Shown piece after piece: positions 11,299-24,093 of a stretch of DNA of 24,093 nucleotides. The DNA lies in the IMG/VR virus record IMGVR_UViG_3300042890_002437, positions 1 to 24,093 of that record; one strand, given 5' to 3'. Each line of letters opens with the position of its first letter. The first letter of the stretch is position 1. This DNA is from a virus. Position numbers and translations under genes: made by a program. Below the pieces are notes generated by a model. The model saw nothing but the letters and a program-made list of their open reading frames with translations, searched no databases and was not told the DNA's origin.

Positions 11299-11508
11299 TT
11301 ACCACTTACCTACTGGACATTTAGCATTGGCTAACATAGACTTAGCAGCCATGAAACATCCACATTTTCTACAGGTTTGTGTGGTTTTACGAAAGAAGTC
11401 GCAACCTTTACAAATTTCTAAACGGTATTGAGCAACTTCCTCTGGCGACCTAGGTGATCCATTAAATAAATCCCAAGGCCTAACATCACGATCATCCTGG
11501 TCAGACAT
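11299..11508 (-). CDS. Six-Cys zinc-binding-like protein, 69 aa
   Basis: A 69-residue protein with RPWDLFNGSP near the start and Cys at 33, 36, 46, 49, 51 and 64, ending CPVGKW. The spacing C-x2-C-x9-C-x2-C-x-C-x12-C is identical in the rightward gene at 16590-16829. Small proteins ending CPxGKW recur in phage genomes; I do not know their role. It starts two bases after the gene at 11511-11702, with which it shares a promoter. Zinc binding is inferred. Confidence 0.78.
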   Translation of the reverse strand: MSDQDDRDVRPWDLFNGSPRSPEEVAQYRLEICKGCDFFRKTTQTCRKCGCFMAAKSMLANAKCPVGKW

Positions 11509-12927: not shown

Positions 12928-13674
12928 ATGGTTCCCATGGCAACTAGCATGGATCCACCTCAACCGCTTAAAAAGAAAAACTATTTAGACGCAGTAAAAT
13001 CTTCAACCCCACAAGAACTAGATAAACAATATATTGCAGTTCCTGGTCTTCAGGGACCAACTGGATTACAAGGCCCTAAAGGAGATAAGGGTGATAAGGG
13101 TGATGCTGGTCCACAGGGACCAAAAGGTGATCAGGGCAAACCTGGACCACAGGGAGAACGTGGAGAGCCTGGAAAAGGCGGAGAAGGCTATGATTCACCT
13201 TCAGGACAATATCCAGGTTGGGCATACTATAAAAATGGATCAGATAAACTTACTATTTTAGGTCCACAAAGAGGAGATGACGGATGGGTATCTGTTAATT
13301 TTTCTCCAAACCTTGAGTCTTCAAATCAAGACTACATTATGAAAAATGGCAACGAACTTTGGCTGTCAGATATAAATATGTTTAATTTTAAAGGTTTAAA
13401 ACTAGGGGCTAAAGTTGATATAAGGTATGACTTTACAATAACCACTGAATCAAACTATACAGAGTTATGGATTAGAACATTTAATGAAAAATATTCAAAT
13501 TCTCCTACTTCTTATGTGGCAAACCTTAAATACCAATATTCTTATGATATGTCATTTTTTCAAACGGTATATATTGATGATCAAAGAATTAAGAGTTACG
13601 GAGCAAGGCCACAGGCAAGAACAGATTCAGAGAGCACGTTATGGTTAAAAGGTATTTATATCTCGGTTTGTTAA
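12928..13674 (+). CDS. Collagen-like virion fibre protein
   Basis: A 248-residue protein: about 39 residues of N-terminal anchor, then 16 Gly-X-Y triplets (residues 40-87, e.g. GPTGLQGPKGDKGDKGD), then a roughly 160-residue C-terminal domain rich in Tyr, Ser and strands. Collagen-like triplets form trimeric shafts in phage fibres; the C-terminal domain may bind a receptor. Triplets with Pro in the Y position (GKP, GEP) are the form hydroxylated in collagens, which matters because a prolyl-hydroxylase-like gene lies at 17756. The start may be at 12928, 12937 or 12949; no strong ribosome-binding site separates them. Confidence 0.82.
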   Translation: MVPMATSMDPPQPLKKKNYLDAVKSSTPQELDKQYIAVPGLQGPTGLQGPKGDKGDKGDAGPQGPKGDQGKPGPQGERGEPGKGGEGYDSPSGQYPGWAYYKNGSDKLTILGPQRGDDGWVSVNFSPNLESSNQDYIMKNGNELWLSDINMFNFKGLKLGAKVDIRYDFTITTESNYTELWIRTFNEKYSNSPTSYVANLKYQYSYDMSFFQTVYIDDQRIKSYGARPQARTDSESTLWLKGIYISVC

Positions 13675-14642: not shown

Positions 14643-15227
14643 ATGGCATCTGAATCTATAGGCTCAATTTATCCCACACAAATACCTGGGTATGCAGACA
14701 ATGCTGACATTCAAGCGGCATTTAGACTCTACCACTATGGCTCTACAGCATATAGCACAGCAAATACAAATACCGCAAACCTTGTAAACCCATCAATTGC
14801 TTATACATTAAATAATTTACAAACACAAATAACAACTTTAGTATCTCCAAGAGAAAAAGCAGTGATATCAGCAACTGCTGCTACTGGAACTGTACACCTT
14901 GATGTAAGTACAGCATCTGTTCATATTTATACAGCCAACGCAACAGCAAACTACGCACTAAACGTTCGTGGAAATGCCTCAACTACTTTAAACTCATTAA
15001 TGGCAGTTGGAGAATCTATTACAGTTACTTTTGAGCACCCAAATGGTGGAACAGCATATTATCCAAGTTCATATACAATTGATGGAAATGCAGTTACTCC
15101 AAAATGGCTGGGTGGAACAGCCCCTACAGGTGGAAATACTAACTCAACAGATGTGTATATGATTCAGATTAGAAAAACTGGTTCTGCTACTTTTACATGT
15201 CTGGCATCTCAATCTAAGTTTGCTTAG
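14643..15227 (+). CDS. Virion/tail fibre protein, 194 aa
   Basis: It begins MASESIGSIYPTQIPGYADN, then a helical stretch (residues 20-75, AFRLYHYGSTAYSTANTNTA) likely to form a trimeric stem, and a C-terminal beta domain (about residues 80-194) ending in a FTCLASQSKF strand. Ala/Thr/Ser-rich, no Cys pair. Typical of phage fibres. The stop is nine bases before the GTG of the (TPTPV)n gene, so the two are probably co-transcribed. Confidence 0.7.
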   Translation: MASESIGSIYPTQIPGYADNADIQAAFRLYHYGSTAYSTANTNTANLVNPSIAYTLNNLQTQITTLVSPREKAVISATAATGTVHLDVSTASVHIYTANATANYALNVRGNASTTLNSLMAVGESITVTFEHPNGGTAYYPSSYTIDGNAVTPKWLGGTAPTGGNTNSTDVYMIQIRKTGSATFTCLASQSKFA

Positions 15228-15235
15228 GGGTTAAC

Positions 15236-16324
15236 GTGCCACTATTTCGTTACCCCAGCGCAATTGGTATATTTTTAAAATTAGCAACTACACCAACTCC
15301 TACCCCTACACCTGTAACCCCAACCCCTGTTACACCAACACCAGTTACTCCAACACCAGTTACACCAACACCAGTTACACCAACTCCAGTTACACCAACA
15401 CCAGTTACTCCTACACCTGTAGCCCCTACTCCAACACCAGTTACTCCTACACCTGTTACACCAACACCAGTTACACCAACTCCAGTTACACCAACTCCTG
15501 TAACTCCTACACCTGTAACACCTACCCCTGTAACACCTACACCTGTTGCACCTACAACGGGAACCGTTTATCTTTCATATTGCTTTGATGGAACACCAAC
15601 ACAAGAATCATACCTTGTTGATGAAAACAATATTATTGTACAAAATATTAACCAAGCCTGTGCTGCCTACACTTCAGTTCTTCAAGGTTTAAATCCTCCA
15701 GCCACAAGTATTTCTTGCTCAATAGTATCTCAGCCTGCAGCACCAGCAAGTTGTCCTACAACACCTACACCAGTTACACCTACACCTGTTACTCCAACAC
15801 CTGTAACACCTACACCTGTTACACCTACACCTGTTGCTCAAACTACATACTACGGATGCTGTGCTGATGGATCTTCACTTAGCGGTCCTTACGCTAATTC
15901 TTCTGCAGCAGCAGCAGAATTTGAACAGGTTTGTAATACTGCATATCAAAGTTCTCTTTCTGGTGGAGTCTACACAACACCACAAAGTTGTAACGTTACT
16001 CCTACACCTGTTACTCCAACACCTGTAACTCCTACACCAGTTACTCCAACACCTGTTGCATTAACATTTTGTCCTTCATTAGGTTATAGTGTTCCATCAA
16101 GCGGTTATCCAGGTAACTGCCCAGGAGCAACACCTACCCCAGTTGCACCAACCCCAGTTACACCAACTCCTGTAACTCCAACCCCTGTAACTCCAACCCC
16201 TGTAGCACCATCACCTGGGTGTGAAGTAGGAACTATTTGTAATGCAGTAATGGTTGGAGACTGTATTGATTTCTATGTTTATAATGCATCTTGTGGATGT
16301 GAGTATGTCTCAACATTCTGTTAG
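15236..16324 (+). CDS. (TPTPV)n repeat protein with Cys-rich modules
   Basis: A 362-residue protein from a GTG (15236) with AGGGG nearby. A short hydrophobic N-terminus ([20 protein letters not shown]) is followed by four blocks of about 5-residue TPTPV repeats (roughly 25-30 units). They separate Cys-rich modules: one near residues 107-172, one with a [13 protein letters not shown] motif near 205-253, a short one with [20 protein letters not shown] near 275-300, and a final [15 protein letters not shown] end. The repeat DNA is nearly periodic (15 bases). Pro/Thr linkers are extended and rich in hydroxylation and O-glycosylation targets. Probably a virion-displayed fibre or adhesin; next to the modification cassette. 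Confidence 0.82.
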
Positions 16325-16358: not shown

Positions 16359-16586
16359 ATGAGCGAAGTAGAAAATGTATACTCAGATATAAAAACCTAT
16401 GCACTTGTTATAGGTGGAGAGTTTGCCTGTGTTTTAAAAATGCCATCAGTTGGTAACTCAAAAGTAGAAATGCTCTCAGCAGCACTAAGTAGTAATCCAG
16501 TGATTGTAGATATGACTGGCACAGACTTTCCAGACGATGGAATTGGATGGTCTTGGAATGGTACTAGTTTAGAAAAAGCAGAATAA
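16359..16586 (+). CDS. Small phage protein, 75 aa
   Basis: A 75-residue protein (MSEVENVYSDIKTYALVIGG, later SNPVIVDMTGTDFPDDGIGW, ending WNGTSLEKAE). The strand-helix-strand then GWSWNG end recurs in small phage proteins I have seen near structural genes; role unknown. AAAGGA ribosome-binding site and own promoter. Confidence 0.75.
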   Translation: MSEVENVYSDIKTYALVIGGEFACVLKMPSVGNSKVEMLSAALSSNPVIVDMTGTDFPDDGIGWSWNGTSLEKAE

Positions 16587-16589
16587 CTA

Positions 16590-16829
16590 ATGAGTGAAAT
16601 TTTAACACCATGGGAACAGTACAAAAAAAATTTAGGTGATACAAGGCCTTGGGACTTAGTAAATCCAAATGTAGAATGGGCAGATGAAGAAATAGCAAAA
16701 AAAAGATATTCTATTTGCAAAGGTTGTCCAGAATTAATAAAGTTAACTAGTCAATGTAAAAAGTGTGGCTGTTTAATGAAAATGAAAACAAAGTTAGAAA
16801 AAGCAACATGTCCACTGCAAAAGTGGTAA
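16590..16829 (+). CDS. Six-Cys zinc-binding-like protein, 79 aa
   Basis: A 79-residue protein with RPWDLVNPN and Cys at 43, 46, 56, 59, 61 and 74, ending CPLQKW. The Cys spacing is identical to that of the leftward gene at 11299-11508, so the two are paralogues. It starts three bases past the previous stop, and its 3' end overlaps the glycosyltransferase gene. Zinc binding inferred; role unknown. Confidence 0.78.
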   Translation: MSEILTPWEQYKKNLGDTRPWDLVNPNVEWADEEIAKKRYSICKGCPELIKLTSQCKKCGCLMKMKTKLEKATCPLQKW

Positions 16830-17710
16830 ATAGTATATTTGTTTCTATAGCGTCTTTTCGTGATACAGAATTAACAGATACGCTTTATAGTTTATTGTCT
16901 CAAGCAAAAGATTTAAGTAAAATACATGTATGTGTTTTGTCACAAGATGAAAACGATAAGCACCCAAAATTAGAAAATCTCTTTGATCTATTCGGTGTAT
17001 TAGATTATACCTATAAAAAAATGAACTACTTGGAATCCTCTGGTGTTGGATATGCTAGAAACTATATTCAAAATTTTATAAAACCACAGCATGATTTTTA
17101 TTTACAAATTGACAGTCATTCCAGGTTTGTTAAAAACTGGGACGAAATGTTAATTGAAGATTATAATAAGTGTTTAAATTATTGGGATGGAGAAGTTATA
17201 TTAACATCATACCCATATGGATTTACATATGATAAGTTTGGTAATTTTAAATGTGATGAATTCAATAAGCCTCATACAGTAAAAGCAGTTTCTTTTGAAA
17301 ATGATTTTATAGGTTATAACTGTGCCAATATAGAGTATACAGGAGCCGATTATGGAATGCTTACTGGTTATTTTTGTGGTGGCCTTGCTTTTGGAAAGTC
17401 ACAAACTTTTATAGATACTCCATATGATCCAGAAATATTTTTCTATGGAGAAGAGCAAACACTTTCTATTAGATTTTATGAAAAAGGCATAAAGATTATA
17501 GGGCCACCAAGAAATTACATATATCACGACTATGATGGAAGTAGGAGAAAACGTCAATGGGATGGAGATATAAAAAATTATATATCAAATGAAAAAAGGT
17601 CTGAGCAAAGACTTTTGGACTTTTGCAACGGAACAATGCCTGATGCTAAGTATTCATTGAGAGATACCTCTTCAATAATTGGTTGGGCAGAGAAGTTCGT
17701 TGACAAGTAG
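16808..17710 (+). CDS. GT60-like GlcNAc-transferase (Skp1-hydroxyproline type)
   Basis: A 300-residue protein from the ATG at 16808, overlapping the preceding gene by 22 bases; the longer frame from 16763 would overlap further. It matches the PF11397 pattern (GT60; UDP-GlcNAc to hydroxyproline in Dictyostelium Skp1): IFVSIASFRDTELTDTLYSL at residues 10-29; GVGYARNYIQNF at 79-90; the metal-binding stretch FYLQIDSHSRFVKNWDE (97-113, with D102, H104); then YFYGEEQTL (212-218) and IYHDYDG (238-244). GT-A fold, cytosolic. It lies after the Pro/Thr repeat gene and before the oxygenase gene. Sequence is very AT-rich, suggesting transfer. Acceptor here inferred. Confidence 0.78.
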   Translation: MSTAKVVNSIFVSIASFRDTELTDTLYSLLSQAKDLSKIHVCVLSQDENDKHPKLENLFDLFGVLDYTYKKMNYLESSGVGYARNYIQNFIKPQHDFYLQIDSHSRFVKNWDEMLIEDYNKCLNYWDGEVILTSYPYGFTYDKFGNFKCDEFNKPHTVKAVSFENDFIGYNCANIEYTGADYGMLTGYFCGGLAFGKSQTFIDTPYDPEIFFYGEEQTLSIRFYEKGIKIIGPPRNYIYHDYDGSRRKRQWDGDIKNYISNEKRSEQRLLDFCNGTMPDAKYSLRDTSSIIGWAEKFVDK

Positions 17711-17755: not shown

Positions 17756-18337
17756 ATGAAAGAGCCTTATCTATTAAAAAATGTTTTTCCACCAGAAGAG
17801 CATAAGCAATTACAAAATTTAGCAATGAATTTGTGGTCAACAGACAAAAGCACTTTTGACGAAAACTTTGGTAGACATCAATGGGCAATTTGGGACGGAA
17901 CTCATAAAGAAAACGTTGAACCATTAAGAAGATTTCATGAAATGCTACTACCTTTAGCAAGAGAAGAATTTGAATCAGAAACATTAGTTCCATCTTGGTG
18001 TTTAATAAGTATTTATGAAAGTGATAAAGCAAAATTATGGAAGCATGTTGATGACAATGCCTGTACATATCACATAAACTATACAATTTTTCATAAAACA
18101 CCTTGGGATTTTTATGTTAAGGGAGAAAAGTTTCAACCACAAGAAAATGATGCTGTAATCTCTTATGGAAATGAACAAGAACACTGGAGAGAAGAATTTC
18201 CAAGCCCAGAAACAAATCTTGTTGCAAATGCTTTTTTCTTTTATGTAGAACCAGATCATTGGTTTTTTACAGAAGGGCCACAGTATTTATACACTGGTAT
18301 ACGTGCTAAAAAAGATAAAGATACTCCAAGCATGTAG
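17756..18337 (+). CDS. 2-oxoglutarate/Fe(II) oxygenase, prolyl-hydroxylase-like
   Basis: A 193-residue protein. WKHVDDN (H97-x-D99) and EHW (H143) give the H-x-D...H iron triad of 2OG/Fe(II) oxygenases, 44 residues apart. Around them, the strands TYHINYTIF and NAFFFYVEP and the W-rich motif PWDFYV form the double-stranded beta-helix pattern. The 2OG-binding Arg/Lys usual after the second His is not clear (R145 lies close; N154 at +11), so it may vary or belong to a less common branch. Prolyl 4-hydroxylases have this fold; with a GT60 gene next door, prolyl hydroxylation is the best guess. Own promoter; 2 bases before the next gene. Confidence 0.7.
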   Translation: MKEPYLLKNVFPPEEHKQLQNLAMNLWSTDKSTFDENFGRHQWAIWDGTHKENVEPLRRFHEMLLPLAREEFESETLVPSWCLISIYESDKAKLWKHVDDNACTYHINYTIFHKTPWDFYVKGEKFQPQENDAVISYGNEQEHWREEFPSPETNLVANAFFFYVEPDHWFFTEGPQYLYTGIRAKKDKDTPSM

Positions 18338-18339
18338 TC

Positions 18340-19374
18340 ATGGGAAATCTTTTTTATCAACTTTACCAACCATGTGGTTTGTTTAATCAAATAACAAGTT
18401 TGGAAGTTGCTGTTGGTTTGGCAAATAGATCTAAAAAACAATTAGTTTTGCATAACATTAGTAATCCTCCAAATGGAGACTACGGTGGAGCAAGAGTTCC
18501 AATTTATTCTGCAAATTATAAATATAATGAAAGAAGCCATTTAATTGATTCTAATGTATTTCCAAATATATTAGATTTAGTTGATTGGGAAAATAAAGAC
18601 TGTAATATTTTTATAAATGACACAGTAGATAGTTTTACTTATGAAGATTTAAAAATAGAAAACCTAATGTCATATTATTCAGTAGAATCAAAAACTTATG
18701 CAAACGAAGAAGAACTTTTTTCTGAAGGAAGAGAAAGGCTTTTGCTAGATGATTATAACAATGTACATTTGAAAAAAACATTAGGATATTACAGTAGGTT
18801 TTTCTTTAATCGTGATTTTTCATTAAACACAAGCCTGTCTTCTGTAAGATTTAAACCAGAGTATTACCAATTAGCAGAAAAGATAGCCCTATCTCTTGGT
18901 CTTTTTAATGGAGCACATTTTAGACTTACAGACCACAAAGGCATGTTTGATCCAGATAATAATATTCTAGATTCTGGTATTAGTCAAATAAATAATGGGC
19001 TTCCTCTTGTTATGTGTACTGATCAGCCAGATAGTGAATTAATAAAAAACTCTTCATATAAATACTTAATGCTAGATGAATACATACTAAATAATTTTTA
19101 TAAAGAGTTTAGAGAGTTTAAGTTTAAAGAAGAAGTATCTTTTGGAATCTTGAATAATCTTGTAATGCACTATAGCCAAGATTTTATTGGAAGCCCAGGA
19201 AGTACTTATACTGGATATATTCATAGAGGATTAAATCAAAAAAGAGATATACAATGGAAAATATTCGGGGAAGAAGAACATCTACAAGATGGTCCATATT
19301 CCTGGAATGGATATAATAATAAAGACAGTTTTACAAAACAATGGTGGAGGGAATGGAAGGAGTCAAGAATATGA
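18340..19374 (+). CDS. GDP-fucose-transferase-like (POFUT-type) glycosyltransferase
   Basis: A 344-residue protein beginning MGNLFYQLYQPCGLFNQITS. The pattern of GDP-fucose protein O-fucosyltransferase-like GT-B enzymes can be followed: CGLFNQITSLEVAVGLAN (12-29), the H-x-R motif GAHFRLTD (191-198), the strand LVMCTDQPD (223-231) and FIGSPGSTYTGYIHRGL (282-298), which would bind the GDP-sugar. Family assignment rests on motif order, not alignment. It starts two bases past the oxygenase stop and overlaps the epimerase start (ATGA), so all three are one unit. Donor probably a GDP-sugar, perhaps GDP-L-galactose or GDP-L-gulose made by the next gene. Confidence 0.62.
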   Translation: MGNLFYQLYQPCGLFNQITSLEVAVGLANRSKKQLVLHNISNPPNGDYGGARVPIYSANYKYNERSHLIDSNVFPNILDLVDWENKDCNIFINDTVDSFTYEDLKIENLMSYYSVESKTYANEEELFSEGRERLLLDDYNNVHLKKTLGYYSRFFFNRDFSLNTSLSSVRFKPEYYQLAEKIALSLGLFNGAHFRLTDHKGMFDPDNNILDSGISQINNGLPLVMCTDQPDSELIKNSSYKYLMLDEYILNNFYKEFREFKFKEEVSFGILNNLVMHYSQDFIGSPGSTYTGYIHRGLNQKRDIQWKIFGEEEHLQDGPYSWNGYNNKDSFTKQWWREWKESRI

Positions 19375-20363
19375 AAACAGCATTAGTGTTAGGCGCAGGA
19401 GGCTTTATTGGAAGCCATATGGTAAGGCGTTTAAAGTCAGAAGGATATTGGGTTACAGGTGCTGACCTAAAGTATCCAGACTTCTCTAAAACAGAAGCAG
19501 ATGTATTTATAGAAAAAGATTTGTCTATATACGAAAATGTTGAAAACATCATACACCTTATGGATGCAATAGCCTTTGATGAGATTTATCAATTTGCTGC
19601 AGATATGGGTGGAGCAGGATATATTTTTACTGGACTAAATGATTCTCAAATTATGGAAAACTCTGCATTAATAAACCTTAATCTTTTAAGAGCACAGTCC
19701 AGGCTTAATGAAAAATATGATATTAACAAAACCAAGATATTCTATTCAAGTTCTGCCTGTATGTATCCTGACTATAAACAGTTAGATGTCAATAATCCTG
19801 GACTTAAGGAATCTGATGCATACCCTGCAGATCCTGACAGTGAGTATGGTTGGGAAAAACTATTTAGTGAGAGAATGTTTTTAGCGTTTAACAGAAACAA
19901 CAAGATCCCTGTAGCCATTGCCAGATACCATAATATTTATGGACCAGAAGGAACTTGGGATGGTGGAAAAGAAAAAGCCCCTGCTGCAATGTGTAGAAAA
20001 GTTATACAAGCAAAAGACTCTATAGAAATTTGGGGGGATGGGGAACAAACTCGTTCATTCCTATATATAGATGAATGCATAGAGGCAACAAGAAGGCTTA
20101 TGGAATCAGATTTTACTGGGCCTGTCAATATTGGGTCTGAAGAGATGGTCACTATTAATCAGTTGGTAGATATTGCCTGTAGTATTGAAGGCAAGGTTTT
20201 AAATAAGATGCATGTTCCTGGCCCTCTTGGAGTTAGGGGAAGAAATTCAAACAATGATTTGGTTAGAAAAGAGTTAGGCTGGGACTATTCTATGACCTTA
20301 AAAGAAGGAATTAAAAAAACCTATCTTTGGATTAAGGGTCAAACAGAAAAGCCCCAGCCCTAA
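19371..20363 (+). CDS. gme: GDP-mannose 3,5-epimerase
   Basis: A 330-residue SDR protein from the ATG at 19371 (overlapping TGA; AAGGAG upstream). NAD-binding GAGGFIGSH (8-16); AADMGGAGYIFTG; the catalytic Cys in SSSACMYP (C130); YGWEK (Y159, K163); KAPAAMCRK (K202); WGDGEQTRSFLYIDE; GPLGVRGRNSNND. These four residues match Arabidopsis GME C145, Y174, K178 and K217 with one constant offset of 15, strong evidence for the enzyme. It converts GDP-D-mannose to GDP-L-galactose and GDP-L-gulose. Rare in bacteria and phages. It lies directly after the fucosyltransferase-like gene, so it likely supplies that enzyme. Convergent with the lysozyme gene one base away. Confidence 0.9.
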   Translation: MKTALVLGAGGFIGSHMVRRLKSEGYWVTGADLKYPDFSKTEADVFIEKDLSIYENVENIIHLMDAIAFDEIYQFAADMGGAGYIFTGLNDSQIMENSALINLNLLRAQSRLNEKYDINKTKIFYSSSACMYPDYKQLDVNNPGLKESDAYPADPDSEYGWEKLFSERMFLAFNRNNKIPVAIARYHNIYGPEGTWDGGKEKAPAAMCRKVIQAKDSIEIWGDGEQTRSFLYIDECIEATRRLMESDFTGPVNIGSEEMVTINQLVDIACSIEGKVLNKMHVPGPLGVRGRNSNNDLVRKELGWDYSMTLKEGIKKTYLWIKGQTEKPQP

Positions 20364-22788: not shown

Positions 22789-24093
22789 ATGGCAACAGTA
22801 ACAAAAGATTTTAGAGTAAAGGCTGGATTAGTAGTTGAGGGCGCAACCGCAACCGTTGAAGGCCACGATATTCTTACAAAGAAAATTGCAGACGCAAAAG
22901 GTGATTTACTAGTTGGTACTGCAGATAATGCAATATCTAAATTAGGCGTTGGACAAAATAATTATATCTTAACAGCAGACTCAAATGAGGCAACAGGTGT
23001 TAAGTGGGCAGCCCCACAAGCAGTTGGTGTATTTGGTTCAAGCATTCTTTTTGAAGGTGCTACAGCAGACGACTACGAGACAACCCTTGAAGTAGTAGAC
23101 CCAACAGCAGACCGCACAATCACACTTCCTAACGTATCAGGTACTGTAGTTACATCTGGTGATACTGGTACAGTTACAGCAACAATGCTTGCTTCAGATT
23201 CAGTAACTACCGTAAAAATTACAGATGCAAACGTAACTGCAGCAAAACTTGCTACAGATTCTGTAGAGACAGCAAAGATTAAAGATGCAAATGTAACTGC
23301 TGCTAAACTTGCTGCAGATTCTGTAGAAACAGCAAAGATTCTTGATTCTAACGTAACAGCAGCAAAGTTGGCTGCAGACTCAGTTACAACTTCAAAGATT
23401 CTTGATGCTAACGTAACAGATGCAAAACTTGCTTCAAACTCAGTTACAAACGCTAAGATTGCAGACTCAGCAGTTGATACAGCAGAGATTGCTAATAGCG
23501 CAGTAACAGCATCAAAACTTGCTACAGACTCTGTAGAGACAGCAAAGATTAAAGATTCAAATGTAACTGCTGTTAAACTTGCTACAGACTCTGTAGAGAC
23601 AGCAAAGATTAAAGATCTTAACGTAACAGAAGCAAAAATTGCAGAAGGTGCAGTAACTTCAGCAAAGATTGCTAACGATACAATTGTAGATGCAGACATT
23701 AACTCTGCTGCTGCAATCGCTCAGTCTAAGATTGCAAATCTTACAACAGATCTTGCTGCTAAGTTAGCACTTGCTGGTGGCACAATGACTGGTGCAATTG
23801 CAATGGGTACAAACAAGATCACAGGTCTTGGTACACCAACTGATGGAACAGATGCAGCAACAAAGAATTATGTAGACTCAGCAGCACAGGGTATTGATTG
23901 GAAAGCATCAGTACGTGCAGCAACAACTGCAGCAGTAACACTCGCATCTGATCTAGAAAATGGAGATACTCTTGACGGAGTAACTCTTGCTACAGGTGAC
24001 CGTGTTCTTGTTAAGAATCAGTCAACTGGTTCAGAAAATGGTATCTATGTAGTTAAGGCATCTGGTGCTCCAGATCGTTCAACTGATGCAGAT
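22789..24093 (+). CDS. Long tail fibre protein, C-terminus off the window
   Basis: 435 codons from an ATG (22789) with AAGGAG upstream to the right edge without a stop. N-terminal part MATVTKDFRVKAGLVVEG; then from about residue 130 to 300 a series of roughly 10-residue repeats (such as KLATDSVETAKI and DANVTAAKL) likely to form a trimeric beta or coil shaft; then GGTMTGAIAMGTNKITGLGT and AATKNYVD, a short-fibre knob motif common in T4-type and other phages; then a GDRVLVKNQ...NGIYVV domain. Repeat DNA makes a leftward shadow frame (23073-23699), not a gene. Likely receptor-binding or its shaft. Confidence 0.85.
   Translation, partial: MATVTKDFRVKAGLVVEGATATVEGHDILTKKIADAKGDLLVGTADNAISKLGVGQNNYILTADSNEATGVKWAAPQAVGVFGSSILFEGATADDYETTLEVVDPTADRTITLPNVSGTVVTSGDTGTVTATMLASDSVTTVKITDANVTAAKLATDSVETAKIKDANVTAAKLAADSVETAKILDSNVTAAKLAADSVTTSKILDANVTDAKLASNSVTNAKIADSAVDTAEIANSAVTASKLATDSVETAKIKDSNVTAVKLATDSVETAKIKDLNVTEAKIAEGAVTSAKIANDTIVDADINSAAAIAQSKIANLTTDLAAKLALAGGTMTGAIAMGTNKITGLGTPTDGTDAATKNYVDSAAQGIDWKASVRAATTAAVTLASDLENGDTLDGVTLATGDRVLVKNQSTGSENGIYVVKASGAPDRSTDAD

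Follow-up and report, generated by a model that had tools for sequence, protein, structure and literature searches.

The closest described counterpart of the locus reported here is the Skp1 pathway of Dictyostelium and Toxoplasma, in which hydroxyproline (Hyp) is glycosylated by way of PhyA, an N-acetylglucosamine (GlcNAc) transferase and a fucosyltransferase; a single soluble pathway combines a PHD2-like prolyl hydroxylase, a GT60-type polypeptide alpha-GlcNAc-transferase and fucosyltransferase activity (PMC8724618). GT60 enzymes start glycans on Hyp, as in Dictyostelium Skp1, and on threonine/serine (Thr/Ser) mucin repeats, and the protist members transfer GlcNAc from uridine diphosphate (UDP)-GlcNAc to Thr/Ser or Hyp (PMC8724618). 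A similar set of enzyme genes is present in IMG/VR virus record IMGVR_UViG_3300042890_002437, of which positions 1 to 24,093 were analyzed (this whole stretch of 24,093 nucleotides is called the window). The genes follow an open reading frame (ORF) at 15236..16324 (+) whose product joins four cysteine (Cys) modules through blocks of TPTPV repeats. Because a 2-oxoglutarate (2OG)-Fe(II) oxygenase encoded nearby comes and goes together with proline (Pro)-rich rods across related viruses, the rods probably receive hydroxyl groups and a coat of sugars before the virus exits the bacterial cell. While the Skp1 glycan sits on Hyp of a regulatory protein, the target proposed for the phage is a repeat rod of the tail, and the phage fucosyltransferase-fold enzyme resembles POFUT, NodZ and FUT8 rather than the GT74 enzyme of the Skp1 pathway.

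Several other systems share single elements with this locus. Phage-encoded glycosyltransferases reportedly modify virion proteins in mycobacteriophages, as Freeman et al. are said to have described in 2023, and we know of no prolyl hydroxylase or Pro-rich rod in that system. The prolyl 4-hydroxylase (P4H) of Paramecium bursaria Chlorella virus 1 (PBCV-1) is said to act on Pro-rich repeats; to our knowledge, no acceptor/glycosyltransferase cassette adjoins it. The PBCV-1 enzyme resembles the proposed phage enzyme in being virus-encoded and in taking peptide substrates (Eriksson et al. 1999, cited in PMC9301287 and PMC7019647), but PBCV-1 is a eukaryotic large DNA virus. Mimivirus encodes enzymes that hydroxylate and glycosylate its own repeat protein (PMC9546862), although there the modification is hydroxylysine in collagen. 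In plant extensins, arabinogalactan proteins and protist mucins, repeats rich in Pro/Hyp or Thr likewise form extended rods that are glycosylated; these proteins have no homology to the phage rod and resemble it in design only. P4H has been counted among the abundant viral genes of some environmental viromes, where its use was called cryptic (PMC9301287). Cyanophage genes of the 2OG-oxygenase superfamily have been interpreted in a review as possible DNA-repair enzymes (PMC2984593). The present locus offers a concrete target for such cryptic viral hydroxylases, a clear comparative pattern and, in its Thr-type relatives, a matched natural control. No paper combining phage, prolyl hydroxylase, proline-rich and tail fiber was found in the open-access literature; subscription papers lay mostly outside this search and an earlier description is possible.

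Co-occurrence of the oxygenase with proline-rich repeat proteins

Relatives of the window oxygenase (17756..18337, +) were collected by a viral-contig scan covering the best 80 of 299 relatives, and an ORF was called Pro-rich at a threshold of at least 15 Pro per 60 residues. The locus sets contain redundant loci, and a tail-gene tree, described below, served as the guard against this redundancy. Nearly all loci with upstream sequence had a Pro-rich repeat ORF 0.2-2.4 kb upstream of the oxygenase. After clustering at 85% identity, such an ORF lay no more than 2.5 kb upstream in 27 of the 29 oxygenase clusters whose upstream sequence reached 1 kb or more, and gene order and spacing varied among the loci. 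The partner repeats include TPTPV, TPPPV, PVPVPV and FFPPFFPP, and Pro is their only constant residue. The initial annotation had named the TPTPV protein as a likely acceptor of modification; the survey supports this proposal and refines it to proline as the residue that tracks the constant enzyme. Thr was ruled out as the tracked residue because the almost Thr-free PVPVPV and PPPV rods retain the oxygenase. GT60 was likewise rejected as the constant partner of Pro-rich rods since most Pro-type loci lack it.

Among tail-module loci, the oxygenase accompanied Pro-type repeats in 98/100 cases and Thr-type repeats in 0/6, while the GT60 gene was present in all six Thr-type loci versus 25 of the 100 Pro-type loci. 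The earlier proposal had turned on whether relatives keep the protein without the cassette; no TP/PV-type repeat protein without the oxygenase was found in homologous tail modules. A scan with the neighbouring lysozyme-like gene, blind to the oxygenase, recovered 37 complete modules, of which 3 had both a Pro-rich ORF and the oxygenase, 33 had neither and 1 had a Pro-rich ORF of FFPP type without it (Fisher p = 5e-4). The record of this FFPP case also contains a divergent oxygenase relative about 1.1 kb 3' of another FFPP protein. When the fucosyltransferase-like gene was used as the query, the oxygenase was present in 20/20 and a Pro-rich ORF in 18/20 of the loci with at least 1.6 kb of upstream sequence. 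The corresponding GT60 scan of 80 loci found a Thr-rich ORF near GT60 in 28 and a mixed one in 3, with the window-type oxygenase in none of the 80. The repeat ORFs of four loci (L112-L114 and L128) are very poor in Thr (no more than 2-4 per 60 residues where counted), yet both the oxygenase and the fucosyltransferase-like gene are present there.

FFPPFFPP-type proteins are in some loci (L036, L076, L096, L105, L109, L110, L125, L346 and L347) followed by a canonical P4H-like gene of a second oxygenase family, A3, which replaces the window-type oxygenase. Three Pro-rich FFPP proteins (L062 1-597, L207 2212-3540 and L346 2-973) have by eye an apparent C-terminal Hint/intein-type domain.

Switches of rod type and cassette among close relatives

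By tail genes, the nearest relatives of the window include L131, L197, L130 and L203. All four keep the N-terminus VPLFRNPSA(I/T)GIFL of the repeat protein, and L131 and L203 retain the first Cys module at 84-85% identity. Their linkers are TTTTAAP repeats in place of TPTPV, and they have no oxygenase; a different cassette, composed of GT60 and a radical S-adenosylmethionine (SAM)/SPASM gene, takes its place. The comparison of modules among relatives suggested in the initial annotation separates the linker from the remainder of the protein: it is the linker type that the oxygenase follows, and neither the Cys modules nor other parts of the appendage. It is also the cassette gene that separates Pro from Thr types, the transferases being variable. 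In a tree of two tail genes, built quickly and with several long branches, the Pro-rich rod and the oxygenase switched together in four to five of five independent pairs, and the opposite switch never occurred.

The radical SAM/SPASM gene (weakly BtrN-like, PDB 4m7t, E 2.4e-6) lies 0.03-2.7 kb 3' of Thr-rich repeat genes in L130, L131, L152, L195, L197, L203, L228, L259, L289 and L291, and no tail-module gene was found in the last three of these loci. This gene may be the Thr-type counterpart of the oxygenase.

Anatomy of the repeat protein

The repeat ORF begins with GTG and encodes 362 residues, including 80 Pro, 78 Thr and 16 Cys. Its 29 exact TPTPV units agree with the earlier estimate of about 25-30, arranged as four blocks that link four Cys modules. 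Pro/Thr block 1 (15287..15553) is followed by module M1 (15554..15757, 4 Cys), which is the module shared with the TTTTAAP-type proteins of L131 and L203. Block 2 (15758..15838) leads to M2 (15839..15991, 4 Cys), found along its length at 41-61% identity in several Pro-type relatives, and block 3 (15992..16060) to M3 (16061..16129, 2 Cys), found at 83-87% identity in L035 and L036 (Pro type) and in L152 (Thr type). Block 4 (16130..16210) precedes M4 (16211..16321, 6 Cys), which has 74% identity in L039. All blocks and modules are on the + strand. Tandem Repeats Finder detected period-15 arrays at 15308-15556, 15761-15835, 15995-16057 and 16129-16210 with scores of 234, 122, 98 and 94, well over threshold. 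The copy-number change that had been predicted from this periodicity is seen in pairs of relatives with identical oxygenases, whose acceptors differ in length (676/669, 417/407, 642/635 and 573/633 residues). An assembly artefact confined to a single record was ruled out because a second contig (L003) carries the identical ORF with all 29 units.

No family was assigned to the repeat protein by Pfam, PHROGs or PADLOC, and neither megablast of the whole region nor tblastn of the concatenated Cys modules gave a match among phage records. The protein does not belong with the collagen-like proteins: the TPTPV repeats contain no glycine (Gly) and so no Gly-X-Y.

The oxygenase and the downstream cassette

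The AlphaFold2 model of the oxygenase (predicted local distance difference test score, pLDDT, 93.3) has a PHD2/P4H-like fold. A Foldseek search with the model returned PHD2 as the top match (E 3.5e-7), with AlkB close behind, P. putida P4H at 2.0e-6 and also the Dictyostelium PHD. The putative iron ligands HxD...H (H97, D99 and H143) are invariant in 35/35 oxygenase sequences, and together with the modelled double-stranded beta-helix they point to a 2OG-Fe(II) dioxygenase. At the sequence level the window-type enzyme falls outside the P4H family, with a weak match to 2OG-FeII_Oxy_2 below the cut-off (E 0.0028) and no meaningful PDB sequence match; the A3 family of some relatives matches B. anthracis P4H at E 6e-8. 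From the co-occurrence alone we infer peptidyl proline as the substrate. Among isolated phages, the sole matches to the oxygenase were cyanophage proteins at 28-30% identity. Relatives in cyanophages S-SM1, S-P4 and Syn30 (L328-L330) and phrog_2954 are labelled 'ferrochelatase' in phage records and PHROGs, which is likely a misannotation given the 2OG-oxygenase fold modelled for the window protein. Bacterial genomes scanned with the oxygenase and with the lysozyme-like gene yielded no confirmed relative, and host assignment failed.

Two small genes separate the repeat ORF from the modification cassette, as first described: a 75-residue ORF of no family (16359..16586, +) and a small Cys-rich ORF of DUF6171 (PF19668, E 1.2e-6; 16590..16829, +), the latter occurring in both Pro-type and Thr-type cassettes. 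The next gene (16811..17710, +) encodes a glycosyltransferase of PF11397 (GT60, the polypeptide alpha-GlcNAc-transferase family; E 1.6e-43), with a profile match of 150 bits against a curated cut-off of 21. Downstream of the oxygenase lies a fucosyltransferase-fold glycosyltransferase (18340..19374, +; AlphaFold2 pLDDT 86). Its Foldseek matches were POFUT2 (E 1.2e-6), NodZ (3.6e-6) and FUT8 (1.1e-5), together with POFUT1 and AtFUT1, at template modelling (TM) scores of only 0.35-0.5. There was no Pfam, NCBIfam or PDB sequence match, and the enzyme is therefore regarded as a fold relative of POFUT/NodZ/FUT8 and not as a shown member; it is a likely user of a guanosine diphosphate (GDP)-sugar. 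The last cassette gene (19371..20363, +) is, on strong sequence similarity, a predicted GDP-mannose 3,5-epimerase, aligning over residues 4-326 of 328 with the Arabidopsis enzyme GME (2c59; phmmer E 9.6e-96). GDP-L-galactose would be its product, which suggests L-galactose as the rod sugar.

A 325-residue ORF (L118 9058-10032 and 34 other loci) is common 3' of the oxygenase. It has an SGNH-hydrolase-like motif by eye (VVAIGCSLTLGQGLP) and no Pfam match.

Proposed mechanism and alternative explanations

The following scheme, in which substrate, chemistry, linkage, sugar, order of steps and virion location are presumed, builds on the observed anatomy of the repeat ORF, on the families and folds of the enzymes, and on the finding that Pro-rich rods and the oxygenase tightly co-occur and switch together. 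Extended rods formed by the TPTPV blocks would separate four small Cys modules, the heads of a tail appendage. The oxygenase would act as a prolyl hydroxylase on the rod prolines, and the GT60-family and fucosyltransferase-fold enzymes would add sugars to the new Hyp hydroxyls and/or to Thr, the epimerase feeding GDP-L-galactose to the fucosyltransferase-fold enzyme. The product would be a stiff, sugar-coated rod carrying the heads, similar to a plant extensin or a mucin. We consider it fairly probable that the oxygenase hydroxylates rod Pro and that the partner transferases glycosylate Hyp and/or Thr to give such a rod. GT60 enzymes can act on Hyp as well as on Thr/Ser, in keeping with their occurrence in cassettes of either type. 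A more tentative proposal, to which we give somewhat less than even weight, is a Hyp-glycosylation system of a family of tailed phages, in which an oxygen-dependent phage enzyme hydroxylates the prolines of extensin-like tail rods before sugars are added, and in which phages swap interchangeable rod types along with the matching enzymes (the oxygenase for the Pro type, GT60 and radical SAM for the Thr type). In that case molecular oxygen would be required for tail maturation, Hyp-based glycosylation would extend to tailed phages, and variable enzyme islands beside tail genes would be explained as matched acceptor-enzyme cassettes.

A number of results weigh against this scheme. Two Pro-rich tail-module loci, both of FFPP type (L205 and L207), have no oxygenase in the module; in L126 and at one of the two L127 copies no Pro-rich ORF lies near the oxygenase; and L004 and L397, outside the tail family, have Thr/Pro repeats beside a GT60 gene and no oxygenase. 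Linked inheritance of neighbouring genes can account for part of the co-occurrence. There are only five to six independent switches, and p = 0.0625 is the lowest value that a sign test on this number of pairs can reach. In the fold search AlkB scored nearly equal to PHD2, so the fold alone leaves the oxygenase substrate unfixed. Of three cyanophage regions read, two have the oxygenase relative beside DNA-metabolism genes and not tail genes, and in the third it lies within a cluster of other 2OG oxygenases.

The modifications could instead be two independent ones, with the GT60 enzyme glycosylating Thr directly in the manner of mucins and the oxygenase hydroxylating Pro merely to stiffen the rod, no sugar being placed on Hyp. 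The protist GT60 enzymes do work on Thr/Ser mucin repeats (PMC8724618), the repeat proteins of the GT60-sampled scan are mostly Thr-rich with no window-type oxygenase, and the Thr-type relatives retain GT60 without it. We nevertheless regard this explanation as unlikely, with the Thr-poor rods of L112-L114 and L128 standing against it. With almost no Thr in these rods, Hyp would be the main hydroxyl, and any sugar added to them beside a retained fucosyltransferase-like gene would have to sit on Hyp; the evidence there favours sugars on Hyp.

Less probable still is that the appendage and enzyme genes simply travel as one host-range cassette, the enzymes being directed at DNA, host surface glycans or another virion protein. 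The genes do adjoin and the region swaps as a block, AlkB is a close fold match of the oxygenase, and glycosyltransferases of Nanopelagicales phages have been published as candidates for DNA protection or cell-wall modification (PMC10202952). Such hitchhiking fits poorly with an oxygenase that tracks the linker rather than the Cys modules or remaining appendage, and that alone among the cassette genes separates the Pro and Thr types, and with the variable gene order and spacing. It is very improbable, finally, that the Pro/Thr repeats act as a flexible linker that carries no modification, persists through slippage of the 15-base repeats and lies next to unrelated enzymes. Copy number does shift between close relatives, and TPTPV arrays occur in proteins of other phages that have neither Cys modules nor these enzymes (L007, L012, L017-L019 and L022). 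The linker type and the oxygenase nonetheless switch together, and their association spans several distinct Pro-rich motifs, a pattern that slippage leaves unexplained.

Tail context and additional observations

The ORF directly 5' of the repeat ORF (14643..15227, +) encodes a tail-appendage domain (IPGYADNADIQAAFRLYHYGS..., phrog_5906, E 1.5e-29). Of 126 ORFs carrying the domain, 42 continue in-frame into a Pro-rich tail and 32 have a separate Pro-rich ORF adjoining. Since the domain is fused to, or adjoins, a Pro-rich part in relatives, the window repeat ORF corresponds to the C-terminal rod-and-head part of their appendage protein. The reading frames of the two window ORFs differ by -1, and inspection of the sequence by eye revealed no slippery heptamer for a -1 frameshift joining them. 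The repeat ORF sits among collagen-like and other tail-type genes, including a separate collagen-like ORF at 12928-13674, and its product would presumably be located in the virion. Two small Cys-rich ORFs of the window, at 11299-11508 (-) and 16590-16829 (+), look alike; the second is the DUF6171 member identified by Pfam and the first is similar to it by eye. A tail-fibre-like ORF with 60-base tandem repeats occupies 22789-24093 and runs off the window end.
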